The translations under genes and the position numbers were made by a program. DNA of 33,302 bases, from positions 1-33,302 of the IMG/VR virus record IMGVR_UViG_3300020404_000751; one strand, 5' to 3'. Numbering within the stretch: position 1 is the stretch's first letter; each line of letters starts with the position of its first letter. Under the pieces are notes generated by a model that saw only the letters and a program-made list of their open reading frames with translations, was not told the DNA's origin and searched no databases. The DNA comes from a virus. Of the stretch, positions 3,075 through 33,302 are shown piece by piece.

Positions 3075-3133
3075 TAACACAGAGCCAGCAAACCGTTGCT
3101 GTGCCTTGCGTTGCTGTAAGACTTGTTACTACT

Positions 3134-3163
3134 AGTCCAGGTTTAGTCCAGTTTTAATTGGAC
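3134..3163. repeat. AGTCCAG repeats resembling the attP arm sites
   Basis: Two copies of AGTCCAG at 3134-3140 and 3145-3151 are spaced 11 bp, with an opposed TGGAC at 3159-3163. On the minus strand this reads ACTGGACTAAACCTGGACT, nearly the same as the paired repeats flanking the attP core at 12159-12179 and 12385-12400. It overlaps the stop codon of terS. Its role here is unknown. Confidence 0.55.
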
Positions 3164-3771
3164 ACAACCACAGGATCGCCGTCGCGCACGATGTTTATCT
3201 GTACTGCCACCCCACCACTTTTATGAGCATCAGAGCCAAACGTGGCGCGTTGTGTGCGCTCTAAATACCAGCTATCGGCTCGCCAGTCCTTTTCGCCTGC
3301 CCTGCCAATCCGCTGCACCCTGAGAGCCACAGCCGCGCTTTCAGCCGCGCGTGCCTTTTCACCAAACTCACTGTCATCATTCAACCATCTAGTCAGCGTG
3401 TTCTCATGCACTCCCACAGCTTGTGCCGCATGTAGCTTAGGCACTCCATCTGCAAGCAGGCCAAGCACTGCTGACTTCTTATCTTCCCTAACAGCCACGG
3501 TTGCACTCTGCGCTATCGGTTGCACATCTGTGCTTGGTTGCACTGGTTGCACTTCTGCAACTGGTTGCATAGCCTGGTTGCGCTTGTGCAACTGACGCCT
3601 TACCGCTGTCGTGATAGGCTTATCTGCAACCCAGCCCTCTTTCTTGCACCGCTTCTGTATAGCCTGACGGCTCACTTCATAGTCACGCGCTACTGCTGTG
3701 AAGTTCTCGCCATGAACCACACGCTGCTTTATCTCATCCCAATCTACCTGGGCTGGTTGATACTTACGCAT
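3154..3771 (-). CDS. terS: Terminase small subunit
   Basis: This is the DNA-recognition subunit of the packaging terminase. At 205 residues it has an N-terminal helix-turn-helix (ENFTAVARDYEVSRQAIQKR, about residues 22-41). A Gln/Pro-rich linker (residues 65-85) follows, then a second HTH-like region around VGVHENTLTRWL. The segment DWRADSWYLERTQRATFG is characteristic of TerS-type proteins. The upstream frame is open to 3816, but ATG 3771 has AGGA six bases ahead and begins the recognisable domain, so I chose it. Unusually, large terminase does not follow directly: a 646-residue zincin gene intervenes. The linker DNA contains five GGTTGCA heptamers (listed separately), a possible packaging recognition site. 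Confidence 0.85.
   Translation of the reverse strand: MRKYQPAQVDWDEIKQRVVHGENFTAVARDYEVSRQAIQKRCKKEGWVADKPITTAVRRQLHKRNQAMQPVAEVQPVQPSTDVQPIAQSATVAVREDKKSAVLGLLADGVPKLHAAQAVGVHENTLTRWLNDDSEFGEKARAAESAAVALRVQRIGRAGEKDWRADSWYLERTQRATFGSDAHKSGGVAVQINIVRDGDPVVVSN
3499..3582. repeat. GGTTGCA heptamer array inside terS (candidate pac site)
   Basis: Perfect GGTTGCA copies begin at 3499, 3518, 3536, 3545 and 3563, with a near copy (GGTTGCG) at 3576. Spacings are 19, 18, 9, 18 and 13. Most copies encode Gln-Pro on the minus strand, but the copy at 3499 sits in a different reading frame (Ser-Ala-Thr). The DNA word itself may therefore be what is kept. Some phages, such as P22, have their pac site within the small terminase gene. 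Confidence 0.5.
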
Positions 3772-3909
3772 AACTATCCTGTGAAGAGTGAAATGCCCCA
3801 ACACAAAGGCCATCATTGCGCTGGCGATGACGGTTGCTTAGGTTAGGACATTTCGGATGATATCTACATATTGTGCGATGTGAGCGGTTTGCCCCCACAT
3901 CTTAGAAAA

Positions 3910-3937
3910 ATGATACACGATTTCGCGCACTTCGCAA
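3910..3937 (-). promoter_or_regulatory. Candidate promoter upstream of terS
   Basis: On the minus strand TTGCGA (3937-3932) is separated by 16 bases from TATCAT (3915-3910), a good sigma70-type match. It lies in the 199-base gap between the DUF6362-like gene and terS, where a promoter for packaging and structural genes would be expected. It is the best promoter-like pair I saw between 3.8 and 4.0 kb. Confidence 0.5.
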
Positions 3938-3970
3938 CCCCCTTGATGTAAAAAATCAATATTTGTTGCA

Positions 3971-4354
3971 TTAAAGTTGATAGTGCAACCGAACAAGTGC
4001 ATCCATATAACGCCGCTTCACAGCCCTGCCATCCATGCCTAACCCCATAATCCTGGCTAGTTTTGTCCAGGGTGCGCCCCTAGCTTTAAACGCTGCGCTG
4101 TGTGCAACCGCCCAGACCAGCTTACGGTCATCTTCTGGCATTACTGTAGTCAGCCGCAAGGCTTCATCATACTCGCTTATCTGCCTGGCTGTAGGCCGCA
4201 AGACTGTCTCACCTATCTGCGTCCAGCCATACCCATGCCAATCCTTAACCACTTCAGGCCATGCTGCCAGCTTTGCTTTGCGTGTGGCTGGCGGTAAGCG
4301 TCTGTCTGTCTCTGCTGCTCCTAAGAACAAGTCATGCAGTGCGTTCACGTTCAT
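3971..4354 (-). CDS. DUF6362-like phage protein with C-terminal HTH-like segment
   Basis: A 127-residue protein. The pattern RLPPATRKAKLAAWPEVVKDW, followed by RPTARQISEYDEAL, DRKLVWAVAHSAAF and a closing HTH-like stretch (APWTKLARIMGLGMDGRAVKRR), matches my memory of the DUF6362 family. That family is found in alphaproteobacterial phages and prophages, often just upstream of terminase genes. Its biochemical role is not known. DNA binding is inferred from the C-terminal segment and from its place between a palindromic repeat cluster and terS. The start overlaps the end of the upstream gene by 23 bases. Confidence 0.7.
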   Translation of the reverse strand: MNVNALHDLFLGAAETDRRLPPATRKAKLAAWPEVVKDWHGYGWTQIGETVLRPTARQISEYDEALRLTTVMPEDDRKLVWAVAHSAAFKARGAPWTKLARIMGLGMDGRAVKRRYMDALVRLHYQL

Positions 4355-4619: not shown

Positions 4620-4644
4620 CGATAAAATCACCTTCGGTGTTAAC

Positions 4645-4729
4645 GCTATCTTAGCTAAGATAGCTAAGATGAATCTTAAAAAATATAAAACGGTATGAGA
4701 TATCTAGCTAAGATATCTTAGCTAAGATA
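4645..4729. repeat. Palindromic/iteron cluster built on TAGCTAAGAT
   Basis: Four direct copies of TAGCTAAGAT start at 4652, 4661, 4705 and 4719. They sit inside a perfect 20-bp palindrome (4645-4664) and a perfect 16-bp palindrome (4714-4729). A third, imperfect palindrome (about 4698-4718) overlaps the second. The whole lies in the 132-base gap between the methyltransferase stop and the next start, in AT-rich DNA. It could be an operator array or an iteron-type replication origin. Confidence 0.8.
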
Positions 4730-4751
4730 CGGCCCCTTTTCCTGTTTGAGT

Positions 4752-5954
4752 TCAAAACATATTTGGCTGTACCCATGTTTTGTTAATTCTATCTGTGGCT
4801 ATGTCAAAATATTCTTGCTCCCGTTCTATGCCGATAAACTCCATGCATTCTGTCTTTGCGGCCAGTCCTGTTGACCCACTGCCCATGAATGGATCAAGAA
4901 CGGTTCCCCCCTTGGGTGTCACAAGCCTGCATAAATATCTCATAAGCTCTACGGGCTTGACTGTGGGATGAGTATTTCGCGCCACTGATTGATTACGTTG
5001 ATACGGGTTTTCAATTTGTTTATTTCTGCCATCACAACTATATTGACCAGCCTCTCTGCCGATTAGTCCAGTGTTACGCTCTTCTGTTGATGTCTTTGGG
5101 CAATAAAAGTATCTTGCCCACTCTTCTTGCAATCCATCGTGTATTACGTTTGCTGGGTATCTTCCAAGCGGATTATCTTCTTTCGGTTCTCTTGCGTAGT
5201 TTTTCCCACTCATTGAGTTGTTGTCTGATTCCTTTGATCCAGATTTTGACCAACCAGATACATCATCCGTTGGGTCTACTCTGCACTCATCAATATTCAA
5301 CGCACCAGTGCCATGCTTGACCACGTTATCTGCTATGGATTTCTCTGATATTGGCTTCCTTGCAAGCACTATAGGCTCATGGGCTGGCTTCAATGCTGTT
5401 CCCCAGCCTTCCCAATCACTTTGCCCTTTTGTTACTGTCCTTGTTCTGATAACTGATTGTGCGCCGCCCCCGAATGAATTGCTTGGCCTCATATCTCTAG
5501 TTTCGTGTTTTACAAATTCTCTTTCATTTCCCTCAATTTTATCAACGTACTTGCCAACATTCAGGCTTTTTGGAAAGCCAGAACCATATATCCACATGAT
5601 CTGGTCACGAATATCAAACCCTGCATCCTCTATTGCTACCGCCATGCGGTGGTAGGTGCGACTGCCAGAAAAGGCCAGTAAGTGTCCCCCCGCCTTCAGT
5701 AATTCAAAGCATAAACCCCATGTCTCTTTACGGAACGCAATGTCTCCCCCGTCCCATTCTTTGCCCATAAAACCCTTTGATGCCCTGACGAAAGCCCCGT
5801 CTTTCTGATATTTTGCTGGTGCGGAGCCTTCTTTGCCGTATCGCTCTGTCATGGATTTCAGGTGATATGGTGGATCGGTCACGACTGCGTCCACCGTCAC
5901 ACCTTCACCAATCAACCTCTTCATTTGGCTCAGGCAATCGCCATGAATTATCAT
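4752..5954 (-). CDS. Orphan DNA adenine N6-methyltransferase, beta class
   Basis: This enzyme transfers a methyl group from S-adenosylmethionine to a base in DNA. At 400 residues it has the catalytic motif TDPPY at residues 26-30, a THPTVKPVEL motif near 329 and the AdoMet-binding DPFMGSGSTG at about 354-363. DPPY before the FxGxG-type motif is the beta-class order, and DPPY rather than SPPY favours adenine. The middle carries a long variable region (about 140-300), presumably target recognition. ATG 5954 is preceded by GGAG at a good distance; the upstream gene overlaps by 50 bases. No cognate restriction enzyme is recognisable, so it probably protects phage DNA or marks it for regulation. 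The target sequence cannot be read from this window. Confidence 0.9.
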   Translation of the reverse strand: MIIHGDCLSQMKRLIGEGVTVDAVVTDPPYHLKSMTERYGKEGSAPAKYQKDGAFVRASKGFMGKEWDGGDIAFRKETWGLCFELLKAGGHLLAFSGSRTYHRMAVAIEDAGFDIRDQIMWIYGSGFPKSLNVGKYVDKIEGNEREFVKHETRDMRPSNSFGGGAQSVIRTRTVTKGQSDWEGWGTALKPAHEPIVLARKPISEKSIADNVVKHGTGALNIDECRVDPTDDVSGWSKSGSKESDNNSMSGKNYAREPKEDNPLGRYPANVIHDGLQEEWARYFYCPKTSTEERNTGLIGREAGQYSCDGRNKQIENPYQRNQSVARNTHPTVKPVELMRYLCRLVTPKGGTVLDPFMGSGSTGLAAKTECMEFIGIEREQEYFDIATDRINKTWVQPNMF

Positions 5955-6102
5955 CAACTTTCTCCATTATGACACTGTAAACACCATGATTGCCATAAAT
6001 ATGACTAGCGAATATGTATCCCTTCGCTTCATACTTTTGGATATCCTCATGCGATACAAACCTAAAAATTTGCCTATTCTTGCATTGATCTGTTTGGCTC
6101 AT
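5905..6102 (-). CDS. Small phage protein, unknown function
   Basis: A 65-residue protein. SHEDIQKYEAKGYIFAS followed by GNHGVYSVIMEKV resembles small early phage proteins that pair an 'EDIxxYxAxGY' segment with a 'GxHGxYSVLM' strand; no function is known for these. It starts with an ATGA overlap to the gene upstream. Its 3' end overlaps the methyltransferase by 50 bases and supplies that gene's ribosome-binding site, so the two are co-expressed. Confidence 0.65.
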   Translation of the reverse strand: MSQTDQCKNRQIFRFVSHEDIQKYEAKGYIFASHIYGNHGVYSVIMEKVDDNSWRLPEPNEEVDW

Positions 6103-6616: not shown

Positions 6617-7033
6617 TCAACCACCTTGAGCCTCACAAAGCTGCTGTGTAATTCTAGCTTGCGGCGTGTCGCGTAAATGCAGCAAAGGTTGCAGATATGC
6701 CTGCACCTGAGACAAACGCTTGGCTGTAACGCAGTAAACGCCGCAACAGCGCAATCTTTCTTGAATATCTTTTTGCTTGTCTGTAAGCCTGCCGCCCTTA
6801 GGCCGCTTTAGCTCGAACATGATTGGCCCTTTACAAGCCAGGTCAATCCAGCCTGTGTCTGGAACGAATATTTCGAGGTCAGGCCAGCCAGTAACCATCC
6901 CCAGGCTTTTCAACCTGACTTTATAAGCAACGTGCCGCTGACCTTCATTTGGTGAATGATGTACAACTGACCCCATCGGCAGGCTTGCCTTCAGCCAATC
7001 AACTACATGCTTTTGCAGTTCATCCTCTGTCAT
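6617..7033 (-). CDS. VRR-NUC domain nuclease
   Basis: A 138-residue protein of the VRR-NUC branch of the PD-(D/E)XK nucleases, which act on DNA and often on branched structures. Residues in order: Glu30 in PNEGQR, Asp52 in GWPDL, Glu74 and Lys76 in FELKRP, and Gln87 in LTDKQKD. All are in the positions expected for an intact active site. Stand-alone phage VRR-NUC proteins are about this size and are thought to process recombination or packaging intermediates. ATG 7033 overlaps the end of the Cro-like gene by 14 bases. No strong ribosome-binding site is visible, so translation is probably coupled to the upstream gene. Confidence 0.85.
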   Translation of the reverse strand: MTEDELQKHVVDWLKASLPMGSVVHHSPNEGQRHVAYKVRLKSLGMVTGWPDLEIFVPDTGWIDLACKGPIMFELKRPKGGRLTDKQKDIQERLRCCGVYCVTAKRLSQVQAYLQPLLHLRDTPQARITQQLCEAQGG

Positions 7034-7244
7034 CAGGCATCGCGCCGTAAAAATCGTTTGGCTGAACCGCACCATTCGAATAATCAAGAATGGCAGACAT
7101 ATAGCGTGGGCTTGGTATCAGTGACTGTGGATGCCCCTGCGGTAAACACCACCGCCGCACGACAGTAGCATGTGGTGCGCCAAGCTCACGGGCCAAAGCT
7201 GAGAGGCTCAACCCTTTATTTTTTCTAAATTCATCAAGTCTCAT
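7020..7244 (-). CDS. Cro-like HTH regulator
   Basis: A 74-residue DNA-binding protein, first gene of the leftward operon and divergent from the repressor gene. An HTH is visible at LSLSALARELGAPHATVVRR (about residues 12-31). The tail IPSPRYMSAILDYSNGAVQPNDFY is typical of small Cro-type regulators in alphaproteobacterial phages. ATG 7244 is chosen because the domain begins there; the frame also runs upstream to 7271. No Shine-Dalgarno sequence precedes 7244, and the predicted transcription start lies within a few bases of it, so the message may be leaderless. It presumably competes with the repressor for the shared operators. Confidence 0.75.
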   Translation of the reverse strand: MRLDEFRKNKGLSLSALARELGAPHATVVRRWCLPQGHPQSLIPSPRYMSAILDYSNGAVQPNDFYGAMPDDRG

Positions 7245-7250
7245 GTATTC

Positions 7251-7281
7251 ATTATGTAACAACATTGACATATCCAGTCAA
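7251..7281 (-). promoter_or_regulatory. Leftward promoter of the Cro-like gene
   Basis: On the minus strand TTGACT (7281-7276) is followed after 17 bases by TACATA (7258-7253), or after 19 bases by CATAAT (7256-7251). The -35 box lies within the operator-like inverted repeat at 7263-7283, so repressor binding would block it. The predicted start is at or next to the ATG at 7244. Confidence 0.55.
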
Positions 7282-7340: not shown

Positions 7341-8087
7341 ATGGTTTGGGATGTAGTAATGGCAAATAATTTAGATAAAATGATTCGCCGTAGCGGAATG
7401 ACCAACAGGGCAGTCGCAGAAGAAAAAGGGATCAAGCCTGAAACGCTCTCGCGTCATAAGTCTGGTGCAATTAATATTACAAGGGACGATGCAGAAGAGT
7501 ACGCGCAGATCCTTAACTGTTTACCTCAGATGATTATGTATCAATCCAGCCCAATACCCTGCTTAGGAAAAATAGCTCAAACAAAAACTGGACATTGGCA
7601 CATCGAACGCGATCCGGATTCATACTTTTTTTCTGACAGGGAAACAATGCCTTGCCTTTTTTTGAACGCATATTTCCAACAATACACTGTCTGCCTGCAA
7701 TGGCAGCAAGAAATCGAGGGGATTTATGAGTGGATGGCTGGTGCTTATTTCATTTTTTCTATGGACAAAGCGCGACATAATAAAGTGGACCAAGAGGCTA
7801 TTATGTACAACGCCCTCAGCCGTGATGGTGAAACAGGCAAAATCTTGATGGGTAAAATTTACCCGCAACCAGGTTCCAAAAAGTTCACAGTCTACAACGG
7901 TGACGGTGAGTTTGAAACTTACAAAGATGTAAAATTAGATTGGGCAGCACCTTTAATGAGCGCGTTATACAGACCAGACTTACGGGCAGCAGAGATTGTA
8001 GAGGTTAAAAAAGATGACATGTGGGGTGGCAAGTTTTGTAATGCTGGGCCACATTGGACAGAAGTTAGAGACTTTAAATACGGCTAA
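7341..8087 (+). CDS. CI-like phage repressor (HTH plus beta-rich C-terminal domain)
   Basis: The 248-residue candidate lysogeny repressor. The N-terminus has an HTH (NRAVAEEKGIKPETLSRHKSG, about residues 22-42). The C-terminal half (about 75-245) is rich in aromatic and beta-forming residues, with MGKIYPQPGSKKFTVYN and a closing RPDLRAAEIV. It looks like an S24-type dimerisation domain, but I see no convincing Ser-Lys protease dyad, so RecA-stimulated self-cleavage is doubtful. ATG 7341 has GGAG six bases upstream. That GGAG would lie before the predicted transcription start, so the message may be leaderless, or ATG 7359 may be used. It is divergent from the Cro-like gene. Confidence 0.75.
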   Translation: MVWDVVMANNLDKMIRRSGMTNRAVAEEKGIKPETLSRHKSGAINITRDDAEEYAQILNCLPQMIMYQSSPIPCLGKIAQTKTGHWHIERDPDSYFFSDRETMPCLFLNAYFQQYTVCLQWQQEIEGIYEWMAGAYFIFSMDKARHNKVDQEAIMYNALSRDGETGKILMGKIYPQPGSKKFTVYNGDGEFETYKDVKLDWAAPLMSALYRPDLRAAEIVEVKKDDMWGGKFCNAGPHWTEVRDFKYG

Positions 8088-10854: not shown

Positions 10855-12078
10855 CTATGCTAATATTGCCGCTGCTGCCTCACGCTTACGTTGCTGCTTT
10901 TCCTCATCAACAATATAATGACCATACTGCTTGCGCGTAAAGTTAGCGTTTGTATGACCCATCGATTCGGAAACCTCTGCCCAATTTGCTCCAAGCTGAT
11001 CAATCAAGTTACTTGCAAAAGCATGGCGCAAATCACTCCACACAAATCTCAATGGCTTGCCTGTTTCATCAACAAAAGGGCAATTCAATCGAAACGGCTC
11101 ACAAATGTCTGTAAAGTCGTTTTTACGCAACGGTGTGCCTGCATCACATGGGAATATATAATGGTCAGCTTCTGTAAACTTTGTGCTAGTTCTGTGCTGG
11201 TCAAGCATCTGACAAATCACTGAGGGCAGTTCAATGTCACGATCCTGTGACTGATCTGTTTTCGCCTTGCCCCGTTTCTGAGTTCCATGTTTGATTGCAC
11301 CAGACACTCTTATCATTTGCCTGTTAGGGCTGTAATCACTCCATTTGAAGGCTCTCAATTCACCCTGGCGACAGCCGCAAGTAAGAGACAACTGCAACAT
11401 CAACTGAAGTGTTTTAGGATGTATTCGCGGCCTCTTACATTGACCAGCAGATGTACGGCCCGAATTTGTATAGGCTTCTATGTAAGCTGTTAGTCCCGCA
11501 GTTTGCAACCACCTCACAAACTCTTTTTGAACGCGAGGTGCGCGGCTATCAACTTTAGACTTAACAGGCAGTTTCATTTTTTCTAGGGGATTAAAGTCTA
11601 TCCAGCCTGAAATAGCAGCATGTTGCAGGAACTTGCCCCAATGCTTCCGCCGCCTTTCCATAGTATCAATGCTCTGACCTTCAGCAGTGATGGCCCTGGT
11701 TGCAGTGTTTTTGAAAGATATACGCGCTGCTTTACTGCCTAAATATTCCATCTGGTGTTTGCCTACAGCCGTGCCTTCAAAAACAATTTTTTGCAGCAAC
11801 TGAAGGTTATGTATTTGCTCTTGATGATATGGCTCTGTCTGCATAAGTTTTTCTTGTTCCAAATAAACACCAATCGCATCATTGACAGAAAACAACTCAG
11901 TGACGATATCATCCTTTGAGGGTAAACCAAGTTGAAATCTTGCAAGCATCCTTGCCGCTTCTGCCTCTGCTTCTCCCTCTGTTTCGAAACCGCCCTCTTT
12001 ACTTGACAGCCCTATGCGCTCTGCATTGATACACCACTTTTGGTTGTCTTTTCGTTGCTTTACAATCAAGGCTTTCAT
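10855..12078 (-). CDS. int: Tyrosine-family site-specific integrase
   Basis: A 407-residue recombinase that inserts the phage into, and with the excisionase removes it from, the host chromosome at a tRNA-Glu gene. The catalytic domain shows Arg237 in CGCRQGEL, Arg351-His352 in WSDLRHAFAS, His375 in SMGHTNANF and the nucleophile Tyr385 in KQYGHY. The usual His of the HxxR box is Ser348 here, an unusual but clear substitution in the sequence. The N-terminal 80 residues form the arm-binding and SAM-like regions. ATG 12078 follows GGGAGAG, which fixes the start; the longer frame to 12126 lacks support. The attP site lies immediately upstream, the usual arrangement. Confidence 0.92.
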   Translation of the reverse strand: MKALIVKQRKDNQKWCINAERIGLSSKEGGFETEGEAEAEAARMLARFQLGLPSKDDIVTELFSVNDAIGVYLEQEKLMQTEPYHQEQIHNLQLLQKIVFEGTAVGKHQMEYLGSKAARISFKNTATRAITAEGQSIDTMERRRKHWGKFLQHAAISGWIDFNPLEKMKLPVKSKVDSRAPRVQKEFVRWLQTAGLTAYIEAYTNSGRTSAGQCKRPRIHPKTLQLMLQLSLTCGCRQGELRAFKWSDYSPNRQMIRVSGAIKHGTQKRGKAKTDQSQDRDIELPSVICQMLDQHRTSTKFTEADHYIFPCDAGTPLRKNDFTDICEPFRLNCPFVDETGKPLRFVWSDLRHAFASNLIDQLGANWAEVSESMGHTNANFTRKQYGHYIVDEEKQQRKREAAAAILA

Positions 12079-12105
12079 GCTTCTCTCCCGTGTAAAATTG
12101 ACTCT

Positions 12106-12137
12106 TCTACACCATAACCTTAACACATTACGTCAAG
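12106..12137 (-). promoter_or_regulatory. Candidate integrase promoter carrying the TTGACGTAAT box
   Basis: On the minus strand CTTGACGTAAT (12137-12127) repeats exactly the box at the early-operon promoter (8110-8120). TTGACG can act as the -35; the best -10 (TGTAGA, 12111-12106) is weak and 19 bases away. The shared box suggests control by the same repressor. Confidence 0.4.
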
Positions 12138-12158: not shown

Positions 12159-12179
12159 AAAACTGGACTAAAACTGGAC
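12159..12179. repeat. attP arm-type repeats, integrase side
   Basis: Two copies of AAAACTGGAC (12159-12168 and 12170-12179) are spaced 11 bp, one helical turn, between the integrase gene and the tRNA-like core. Related pairs occur on the other side of the core (12385-12400) and near the end of terS. Their pairing and position fit integrase arm-binding sites. Confidence 0.6.
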
Positions 12180-12181
12180 GA

Positions 12182-12222
12182 GAAACAAAAAAATAGCCCC
12201 CAGCCTCAAGGGCCAGGGGCTT
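12182..12222 (-). terminator. Intrinsic terminator of the long leftward (late) operon
   Basis: AGCCCC (12195-12200) pairs with GGGGCT (12216-12221), with an inner GCC/GGC pair. On the minus strand it is followed by TATTTTTTTG. It lies after the last small late gene and the attP core, and stops late transcription before the integrase gene. Confidence 0.85.
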
Positions 12223-12253
12223 ATAACTTATTGTAATTATTTGCTAAACAGTG

Positions 12254-12297
12254 TGGCATCCCGTACGGGATTCGAACCCGTGTTGCCGCCGTGAAAG
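12254..12297 (-). other. attP core: 3' half of a tRNA-Glu(UUC) gene
   Basis: Read on the minus strand, this segment runs from the anticodon loop (CTTTCAC, anticodon TTC) through the T-arm (ACGGG-TTCGAAT-CCCGT) to the acceptor strand ACGGGAT, then GCCA. No 5' half is present, so it is not a functional tRNA gene. It is the attachment core that rebuilds the host tRNA-Glu after integration. The sequence matches the alphaproteobacterial form of this tRNA as I remember it. Confidence 0.9.
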
Positions 12298-12384
12298 CTC
12301 GGTTTTGGGCGGTATCTGGTGGTATTTTCAGCAGTTTTAGGGGACTGATTGAGACGCTATGGGAGCCTGTGGTAGCCCACGGCC

Positions 12385-12400
12385 TGGACTAAACTGGACG
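12385..12400. repeat. attP arm-type repeats, distal side
   Basis: Two CTGGAC words (12385-12390 and 12395-12400) are spaced 10 bp, followed by GAGA as on the integrase side. With the pair at 12159-12179 they flank the core, the classic P-core-P' layout. Confidence 0.55.
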
Positions 12401-32770: not shown

Positions 32771-33302
32771 TAAAGTCTCCTGGACGCAGGCTTAGACGCA
32801 TAATCTAGGCCAGCCATCATTTCGTCTATCGTTGGGGGCCGAAAAGGGTCTTCTTCAAGCTCCGGTACACGGCGTTGGAACGGTCTTGCCATACACGCAT
32901 AGCGGATGTCATCCGCTGCATGATCTTCTTGCGTGGTATCAATGTCCTCAACGCGATGCTTATCATGAGTAAGGACAGGTAACGTGCGGATCGTGTCCAC
33001 ACATTCTGAAAAAACGTAAAGCATCGGGATACCATCATCACCTATCAGCCTTTGTCTTACCTGATCCCAGCCAGCCACACGGCTGTTGTCTGCGCGGCGC
33101 ATTCTTACGCCCATTTTGCTCAACCGCTCACCTATCGAGGGGCCACCGTCAAACTTCCAGATACTAGGGTCGCCAACGCTGAAATCTATGCGCTCATGGC
33201 GTTCCCTGGTGCGTATGCCTGCGCCTACCTCTTCAGCAGTCATCCGCAAGCCTACATTCGGCCTGCCAGATGAGCCGTACCATTCACGGTATCTGATAAG
33301 CG
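32770..33302 (-). CDS. terL: Terminase large subunit, C-terminal part
   Basis: This is the continuation of the gene that begins at 1006 and crosses the circle junction. It contains the end of the RNase H-fold nuclease: DGIPMLYVFSECVDTIRTLP, then VEDIDTTQEDHAADDIRYAC. The HAADDIRYA segment carries the last catalytic acidic residue of TerL nucleases. Bases 33201-33302 duplicate 1-102. The stop codon overlaps the portal start. Confidence 0.92.
   Translation of the reverse strand, partial: LIRYREWYGSSGRPNVGLRMTAEEVGAGIRTRERHERIDFSVGDPSIWKFDGGPSIGERLSKMGVRMRRADNSRVAGWDQVRQRLIGDDGIPMLYVFSECVDTIRTLPVLTHDKHRVEDIDTTQEDHAADDIRYACMARPFQRRVPELEEDPFRPPTIDEMMAGLDYASKPASRRL
33201..33302. repeat. Terminal direct repeat, right copy (circle overlap)
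   Basis: Identical to 1-102 except T at 33226 where the left copy has C at 26. The change falls on a third codon position of a Val codon in the terminase gene, suggesting population variation in the source rather than sequencing noise. Confidence 0.95.

Follow-up and report, generated by a model that had tools for sequence, protein, structure and literature searches.

An iteron-like array of palindromic words around an A/T-rich core in an uncultured temperate phage: a putative protein-binding site and a possible replication origin

An iteron-like putative protein-binding array with an A/T-rich core was found in the genome of an uncultured temperate phage (an IMG/VR record of 33,302 bp, analysed as a whole and hereafter called the window). 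In our opinion, this array may work in the manner of a lambda-type origin of replication, a reading which is preferred here only tentatively. Related phages carry different words in the same place, as is expected of a protein-binding site, be it an origin or an operator, although neither use is proven. The findings that point to an origin are the array itself, its position in the early operon downstream of cro, its conservation in close relatives, its core of low stability and the occurrence of such sites at the same position in most lineages.

The record is apparently complete, and it is probably the whole genome because it has a 102-bp terminal direct repeat (99%) at 1–102 and 33201–33302. 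The portal protein gave matches of <32% identity, and the phage is without a close cultured relative. Transcription on the - strand passes the cro-like gene, the nuclease-like gene, several small genes and the methyltransferase gene, and then the array region, P1, P2 and the gene of the small terminase subunit, terS (Table 1). The same gene order, minus the methyltransferase, is found in the relatives. The methyltransferase gene precedes the array in the window and in the contig L002 and is missing there in L003 and L004; since the last two have the array all the same, the array is independent of this gene and a link between them was rejected.

Table 1. Features of the array region and of the neighbouring genes (positions in the window)
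Feature	Position	Strand	Remarks
Promoter-like element GTTGCGAAGTGCGCGAAATCGTGTA	3914–3938	-	Unique in the genome; between P2 and terS in most relatives
terS, small terminase subunit	3154–3816	-	Linker with GYGCAACC array (3499–3583)
P2	3971–4354	-	127 aa, DUF6362 (PF19889)
P1	4332–4631	-	99 aa, probably GTG start at 4631; MILS... start shared with several relatives
Palindrome GCTATCTTAGCTAAGATAGC	4645–4664	none	20 bp, perfect; perfect only in the window genome and L002
Element 2	4648–4670	-	Offset inverted repeat ATCTTAGCTA-TCT-TAGCTAAGAT (4648–4657 / TCT / 4661–4670)
Least stable 40-mer of the whole genome	4651–4690	none	Nearest-neighbour dG -41.6
TAGCTAAGAT, copy 1	4652–4661	+
TAGCTAAGAT, copy 2	4661–4670	+
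A/T-rich spacer between elements 1 and 2	4676–4691	-	Freely diverging in relatives
Element 1	4692–4735	-	44-bp block, identical in four versions; includes AGATATCTTAGCTAGATATCT
Tandem repeat	4698–4729	+	Period 14, 2.4 copies of AGATATCTTAGCTA (Tandem Repeats Finder)
TAGCTAAGAT, copy 3	4705–4714	+
Palindrome TAGCTAAGATATCTTAGCTA	4705–4724	none	20 bp, perfect; the second one, not stressed in the preliminary description
Palindrome TATCTTAGCTAAGATA	4714–4729	none	16 bp, perfect; overlaps 4705–4724
TAGCTAAGAT, copy 4	4719–4728	+
DNA methyltransferase gene	4752–5957	-	Directly before the array region
Nuclease-like gene	6617–7087	-	After the cro-like gene; followed by a few small genes
cro-like gene	7020–7271	-	First in the order of transcription given here
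Repressor gene (CI)	7341–8087		Divergent from the - strand genes

Nested palindromes and four repeats in AT-rich DNA between genes had been noticed in a preliminary description of this genome. Both observations hold, the gap 4632–4751 being 120 bp long with 35% GC, and two inverted copies of the word and a second 20-bp palindrome are to be added. The word TAGCTAAGAT is exact on the + strand at 4652, 4661, 4705 and 4719 (four copies in 77 bp) and on the - strand at 4648 and 4715, in all six copies within the 81 bp of 4648–4728; the word AGATATCT occurs at 4698 and 4711 within the tandem repeat. Among 200 dinucleotide-shuffled genomes, no 10-mer exceeded 3 copies per 120 bp, compared with the 6 observed. 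Shuffling of the intergenic sequence itself gave at least four copies of the word in 0 of 20,000 cases and a 20-bp palindrome in 10 of 20,000. A lone palindrome of 20 bp is unremarkable on the scale of the genome, where shuffles gave up to 30 bp; it is the array that is remarkable, having the top score among 1660 stretches of 120 bp and being unique in the genome.

The region is shared by five IMG/VR contigs (L002, L003, L004, L005/L022 and L007), and four distinct versions of it can be recognised, namely window/L002, L003, L004/L005 and L007 (lineage A). Element 1 is identical at 44 of 44 positions across all four, although the gene upstream of the array differs among them, and the A/T-rich spacer beside it is identical at 10–13 of 16 positions in the three versions measured. 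The ends of the 44-bp block are asymmetric, which argues for an action of selection besides mutation. Element 2 varies. The offset dyad around TCT is retained in L003, L004 and L007 via paired changes, and the palindrome 4645–4664 keeps 7 of its 10 pairs in L003 and L004. Conservation of the palindromes in relatives, proposed earlier as a check, was found for element 1 and for the offset dyad, but not for the palindrome 4645–4664.

Some 50 further contigs encode relatives of P2, nearly all with 53–79% identity, and retain the locus. Short words which are repeated, often palindromic and specific to the lineage stand before P1 in most of these lineages: TACTAGTA in lineage C, AGAGGCTTC in 12-bp steps in E, AGGCCTAC in F, AGATATCT in G and H, AAGGCCATC in I, GACATGTC in J and AAGGATAAGCCTT in K. 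The P1 frame of lineages D, J and K is extended at the N-terminus and encloses the array. When 180-bp stretches at the locus were compared with the rest of each contig, the window's own lineage being excluded, repeated or palindromic words were enriched at the locus over 10 lineages combined (Fisher P 1.6e-7, contig ranks); the enrichment was weak or lacking in lineages B, D and I, which individually were not significant against shuffles. Tandem periodicity of 9–16 bp was also found at the locus, with P 4e-5 against shuffles and 1.5e-3 by contig ranks.

Lineages A and H have AGATATCTTAGNNAGATATCT in common, which is present in no other IMG/VR contig, and AGATATCTTAGCTAGATATCT of element 1 recurs in H with 19 of 21 positions matching. 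Proteins specific to the lineages with AGATATCT (A, G and H) were not found in the contigs compared. A search for a motif common to the lineages gave a 12-mer, AGCTAGCNAAGA, that beat all 30 shuffle sets, and a 10-mer that did not; this weak result was not used. No deposited phage proved to be related to the region or to P1 and P2, one of the searches giving chance-level matches only, no relative was found in the bacterial genomes searched, and a scan of the collection with P1 of lineage H returned only the loci already known. The locus shows replacement of words between lineages at a fixed position, together with signatures of template switching.

As at a lambda-type origin, several near-identical sites with dyad symmetry adjoin an unstable A+T-rich tract (4651–4690) in the early operon, downstream of cro as judged from synteny in the relatives. 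The rank of this tract as the least stable of the genome is marginal (dG -41.6, the next one having -42.2). Over 11 lineages the array region has a lower stability than the remainder of its own contig (Fisher P 1e-5), which partly reflects its intergenic position, and in other lineages the contigs have additional places as unstable as the array locus. The origin words of lambdoid phages are specific to the phage type, and lambda ori sits inside gene O. The words of the array likewise differ between phage types, and some relatives have an array that overlaps with the coding frame beside it. In lambda, near-perfect inverted repeats bind O dimers beside a 40-bp A+T-rich tract (PMC5043065, PMC7466680); near-perfect inverted repeats by an A+T-rich tract, in the early operon 3' of cro, are what is seen here as well. 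The differences are that the phage is without a recognised O or P homologue, that the words of the array, 8–14 bp long and spaced 9–15 bp, are shorter than the 19-bp lambda iterons, and that its sites stand on both sides of the A/T-rich core. Iteron origins of plasmids (R6K, plasmid P1, pSC101) also combine direct repeats with an A+T-rich region, but the array has no Rep protein or DnaA box and its repeats are much shorter.

The phage proteins scanned include no O-type replication initiator and no helicase loader, in agreement with the earlier statement that the genome has no recognisable initiator. No DnaA box similar to TTATCCACA is present near the array, and matches over the whole genome are at chance level. 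The cumulative GC skew, suggested earlier as a check, gave no support for an origin: the curve passes 4.7 kb without an inflection and turns with the direction of transcription. The iteron-type origin considered in the preliminary description is nevertheless compatible with the array and its AT-rich core. If the array acts in this way, copies of one small initiator would bind the near-palindromic words and would wrap or bend the DNA of the array, upon which the adjacent A/T-rich core could open and admit the host helicase. The initiator would be P1, whose gene is immediately downstream, or another small early protein, and its iteron words would be specific to the phage lineage, as in lambdoid origins. 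We infer that a protein binds to the array, that P1 may be this protein and that initiation of replication may be the outcome. Were the array an origin, the adjacent P1 would become a direct candidate for a new type of initiator in phages which have no recognised one.

CI, P2 and P1 were considered as readers of the array. The CI repressor was excluded, because its operators have another sequence: in nearly all lineages with the region available, the operators of CI and Cro have the form TTGAC-n-GTCAA, which is unlike the array words. Moreover, CI has 66–69% identity among the relatives while element 1 stays identical. The earlier supposition that the binder differs from the lysogeny repressor was correct in this respect. 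The product of 3971–4354 (P2), named earlier for binding assays, is unlikely to be the reader, since its C-terminal helix-turn-helix is almost invariant across lineages with differing words. The best match of the AlphaFold model of P2 is the antiterminator Q21, and sigma region 4 is matched as well. The similarity to Q21 (VIA Z 6.8, 112 residues aligned, rmsd 3.7, 8% identity; Foldseek E >1) is below the level that would settle a relationship. P2 is probably the late regulator and not the reader of the array. The literature collection searched contained no paper on DUF6362.

P1 is predicted as an all-helical protein of five helices, without a helix-turn-helix. It has no family match and no fold match in the PDB, and the sole match in a fold search was one viral model, A0A516LVE7. 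It diverges fastest in the interval, with 21–56% identity between most lineages in comparison with 53–85% for P2, and is the neighbour best placed to track the changing words, that is, a candidate reader. This idea is weakened because P1 is nearly the same in lineages E and F, whose words are only partly alike; in addition, lineages A and H have a common word though their P1 proteins are only ~40% identical. A broader proposal, in our view rather doubtful, is that P1 and its relatives are new minimal initiators (~95 aa, all-helical) that co-evolve with lineage-specific iterons beside their own gene and would represent a lineage-wide system of replication initiation unrelated to O/P, Rep and DnaA.

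The origin reading is closely rivalled by another, which is also quite possible, namely that the array holds the operator and promoter of the P1-P2 operon. The dyads flanking a promoter in the A/T-rich core would then be bound by a small regulator, which may be an autoregulatory P1 or another early protein and which would so time the expression of the Q21-like P2. Between the sites there is indeed a possible - strand promoter, TAGCTA-17-TATATT, whose hexamers recur in lineage D; nevertheless, this match is weak, did not come up in the consensus scan and is lacking in most lineages. The evidence for a protein-binding site (conservation, shared word, enrichment and periodicity) fits an operator equally well, and the downstream pair ends in a Q21-like protein, a natural point of control, but CI is excluded and P2 unlikely as the reader. 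Operator arrays of temperate-phage repressors similarly consist of several dyads flanking a possible promoter, with lineage-specific words, although this phage has its CI/Cro operators elsewhere and of another sequence. The Q21 system offers a further comparison: P2, with its Q21-like predicted fold, is encoded just downstream of the array, and the gene has a conserved promoter-like element behind it, in the position that the late promoter takes relative to Q. On the other hand, the palindromes precede the P2 gene, and by sequence P2 is a DUF6362 protein. As an operator of P1-P2, the array would exert control upstream of a late regulator that resembles Q.

A structured leader RNA is unlikely. 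In this case two hairpins of the transcript before the P1 start would serve as an element of mRNA processing, stability or antitermination, and the structure would matter rather than the sequence. In the window's lineage the local fold of the sense strand is strong (z -2.7 to -5.9), but that of the antisense strand is equally strong, so the signal reflects symmetry and not a sense RNA. Three base pairs are changed on both sides among three sequences, two in element 2 and the third in the base of element 1, a result that is suggestive only, as the sequences are few and 35 of 500 shuffles equal it. A 97% identical alignment of lineage B includes an 11-bp inverted repeat in which two of the pairs change jointly (L009/L012). 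Such compensation can come from template switching (PMC8794818, PMC8604942); besides, element 1 is conserved letter by letter and not by compensation, and the tandem direct words of E, K and B2 alone form no hairpins. A search of the window against Rfam at the gathering score gave no match, and no intrinsic terminator (G+C-rich stem with a T run) was found within 4632–4751.

Homogenisation of arms and inversion of spacers are marks of template switching (PMC8604942, PMC8794818). Since such marks are present at the locus, the paired changes are no proof of an RNA hairpin. The same marks could suggest that the region is a weakly constrained spacer which binds nothing, its palindromes and repeats being generated and homogenised by template switching and slippage in replication, an explanation we consider improbable. 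An 11-bp inverted repeat of L008 (4191–4218) has identical arms in L010, where its 6-nt spacer reads as the exact inverse (CAGTGA to TCACTG), and the pairs that changed in lineage A did so by transversion, without a G-U intermediate. Homogenisation of arms, however, could not maintain the asymmetric ends of the 44-bp block, lineages A and H have the same element in common, and most other stretches of the contigs are less enriched than the locus. The palindromic character of the locus may be maintained partly by mutation.

A pac/cos site or an operator of the packaging module is very improbable, although the array is ~0.9 kb upstream of terS: TerS is 50–80% identical between lineages while the array words change, so that these words are not conserved along with TerS as those of a terminase pac site would be, GYGCAACC inside terS is the stronger candidate for pac, and it is at 3914–3938 that a conserved promoter-like element precedes terS. 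The packaging operator suggested in the preliminary description is disfavoured on the last two grounds. Direct repeats of GYGCAACC occupy 3499–3593 (- strand) in the part encoding the TerS linker and recur in nearly every lineage that was checked and has terS. The peptide which they encode differs between lineages (QP, AT or RN) and the word is kept, which argues for a site at the DNA level, perhaps pac. The element at 3914–3938 has the consensus GTTGCRAA-TGC-GAAAT-TGTA and, by analogy with Q (PMC7171158), is a putative Q-type late promoter and a likelier target of P2.

Two minor observations were made outside the array. Paired TGTCTCACACTGAGACA dyads, ~36 bp apart, form an operator-like set between P2 and terS in the contigs L047 (~1595–1655) and L049, and CATGTGTCACAGTGGCACA sites related to these dyads are found in L013, L018 and L038. 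In the window, an attP-like region at 12159–12398 adjoins the integrase gene (10855–12126). It contains direct repeats of AAAACTGGACT, which are likely arm sites, and GGGATTCGAACCCGT at ~12267–12281, which resembles the 3' end of a tRNA; the region is probably attP, and a related word recurs in inverted form at 3123–3155.
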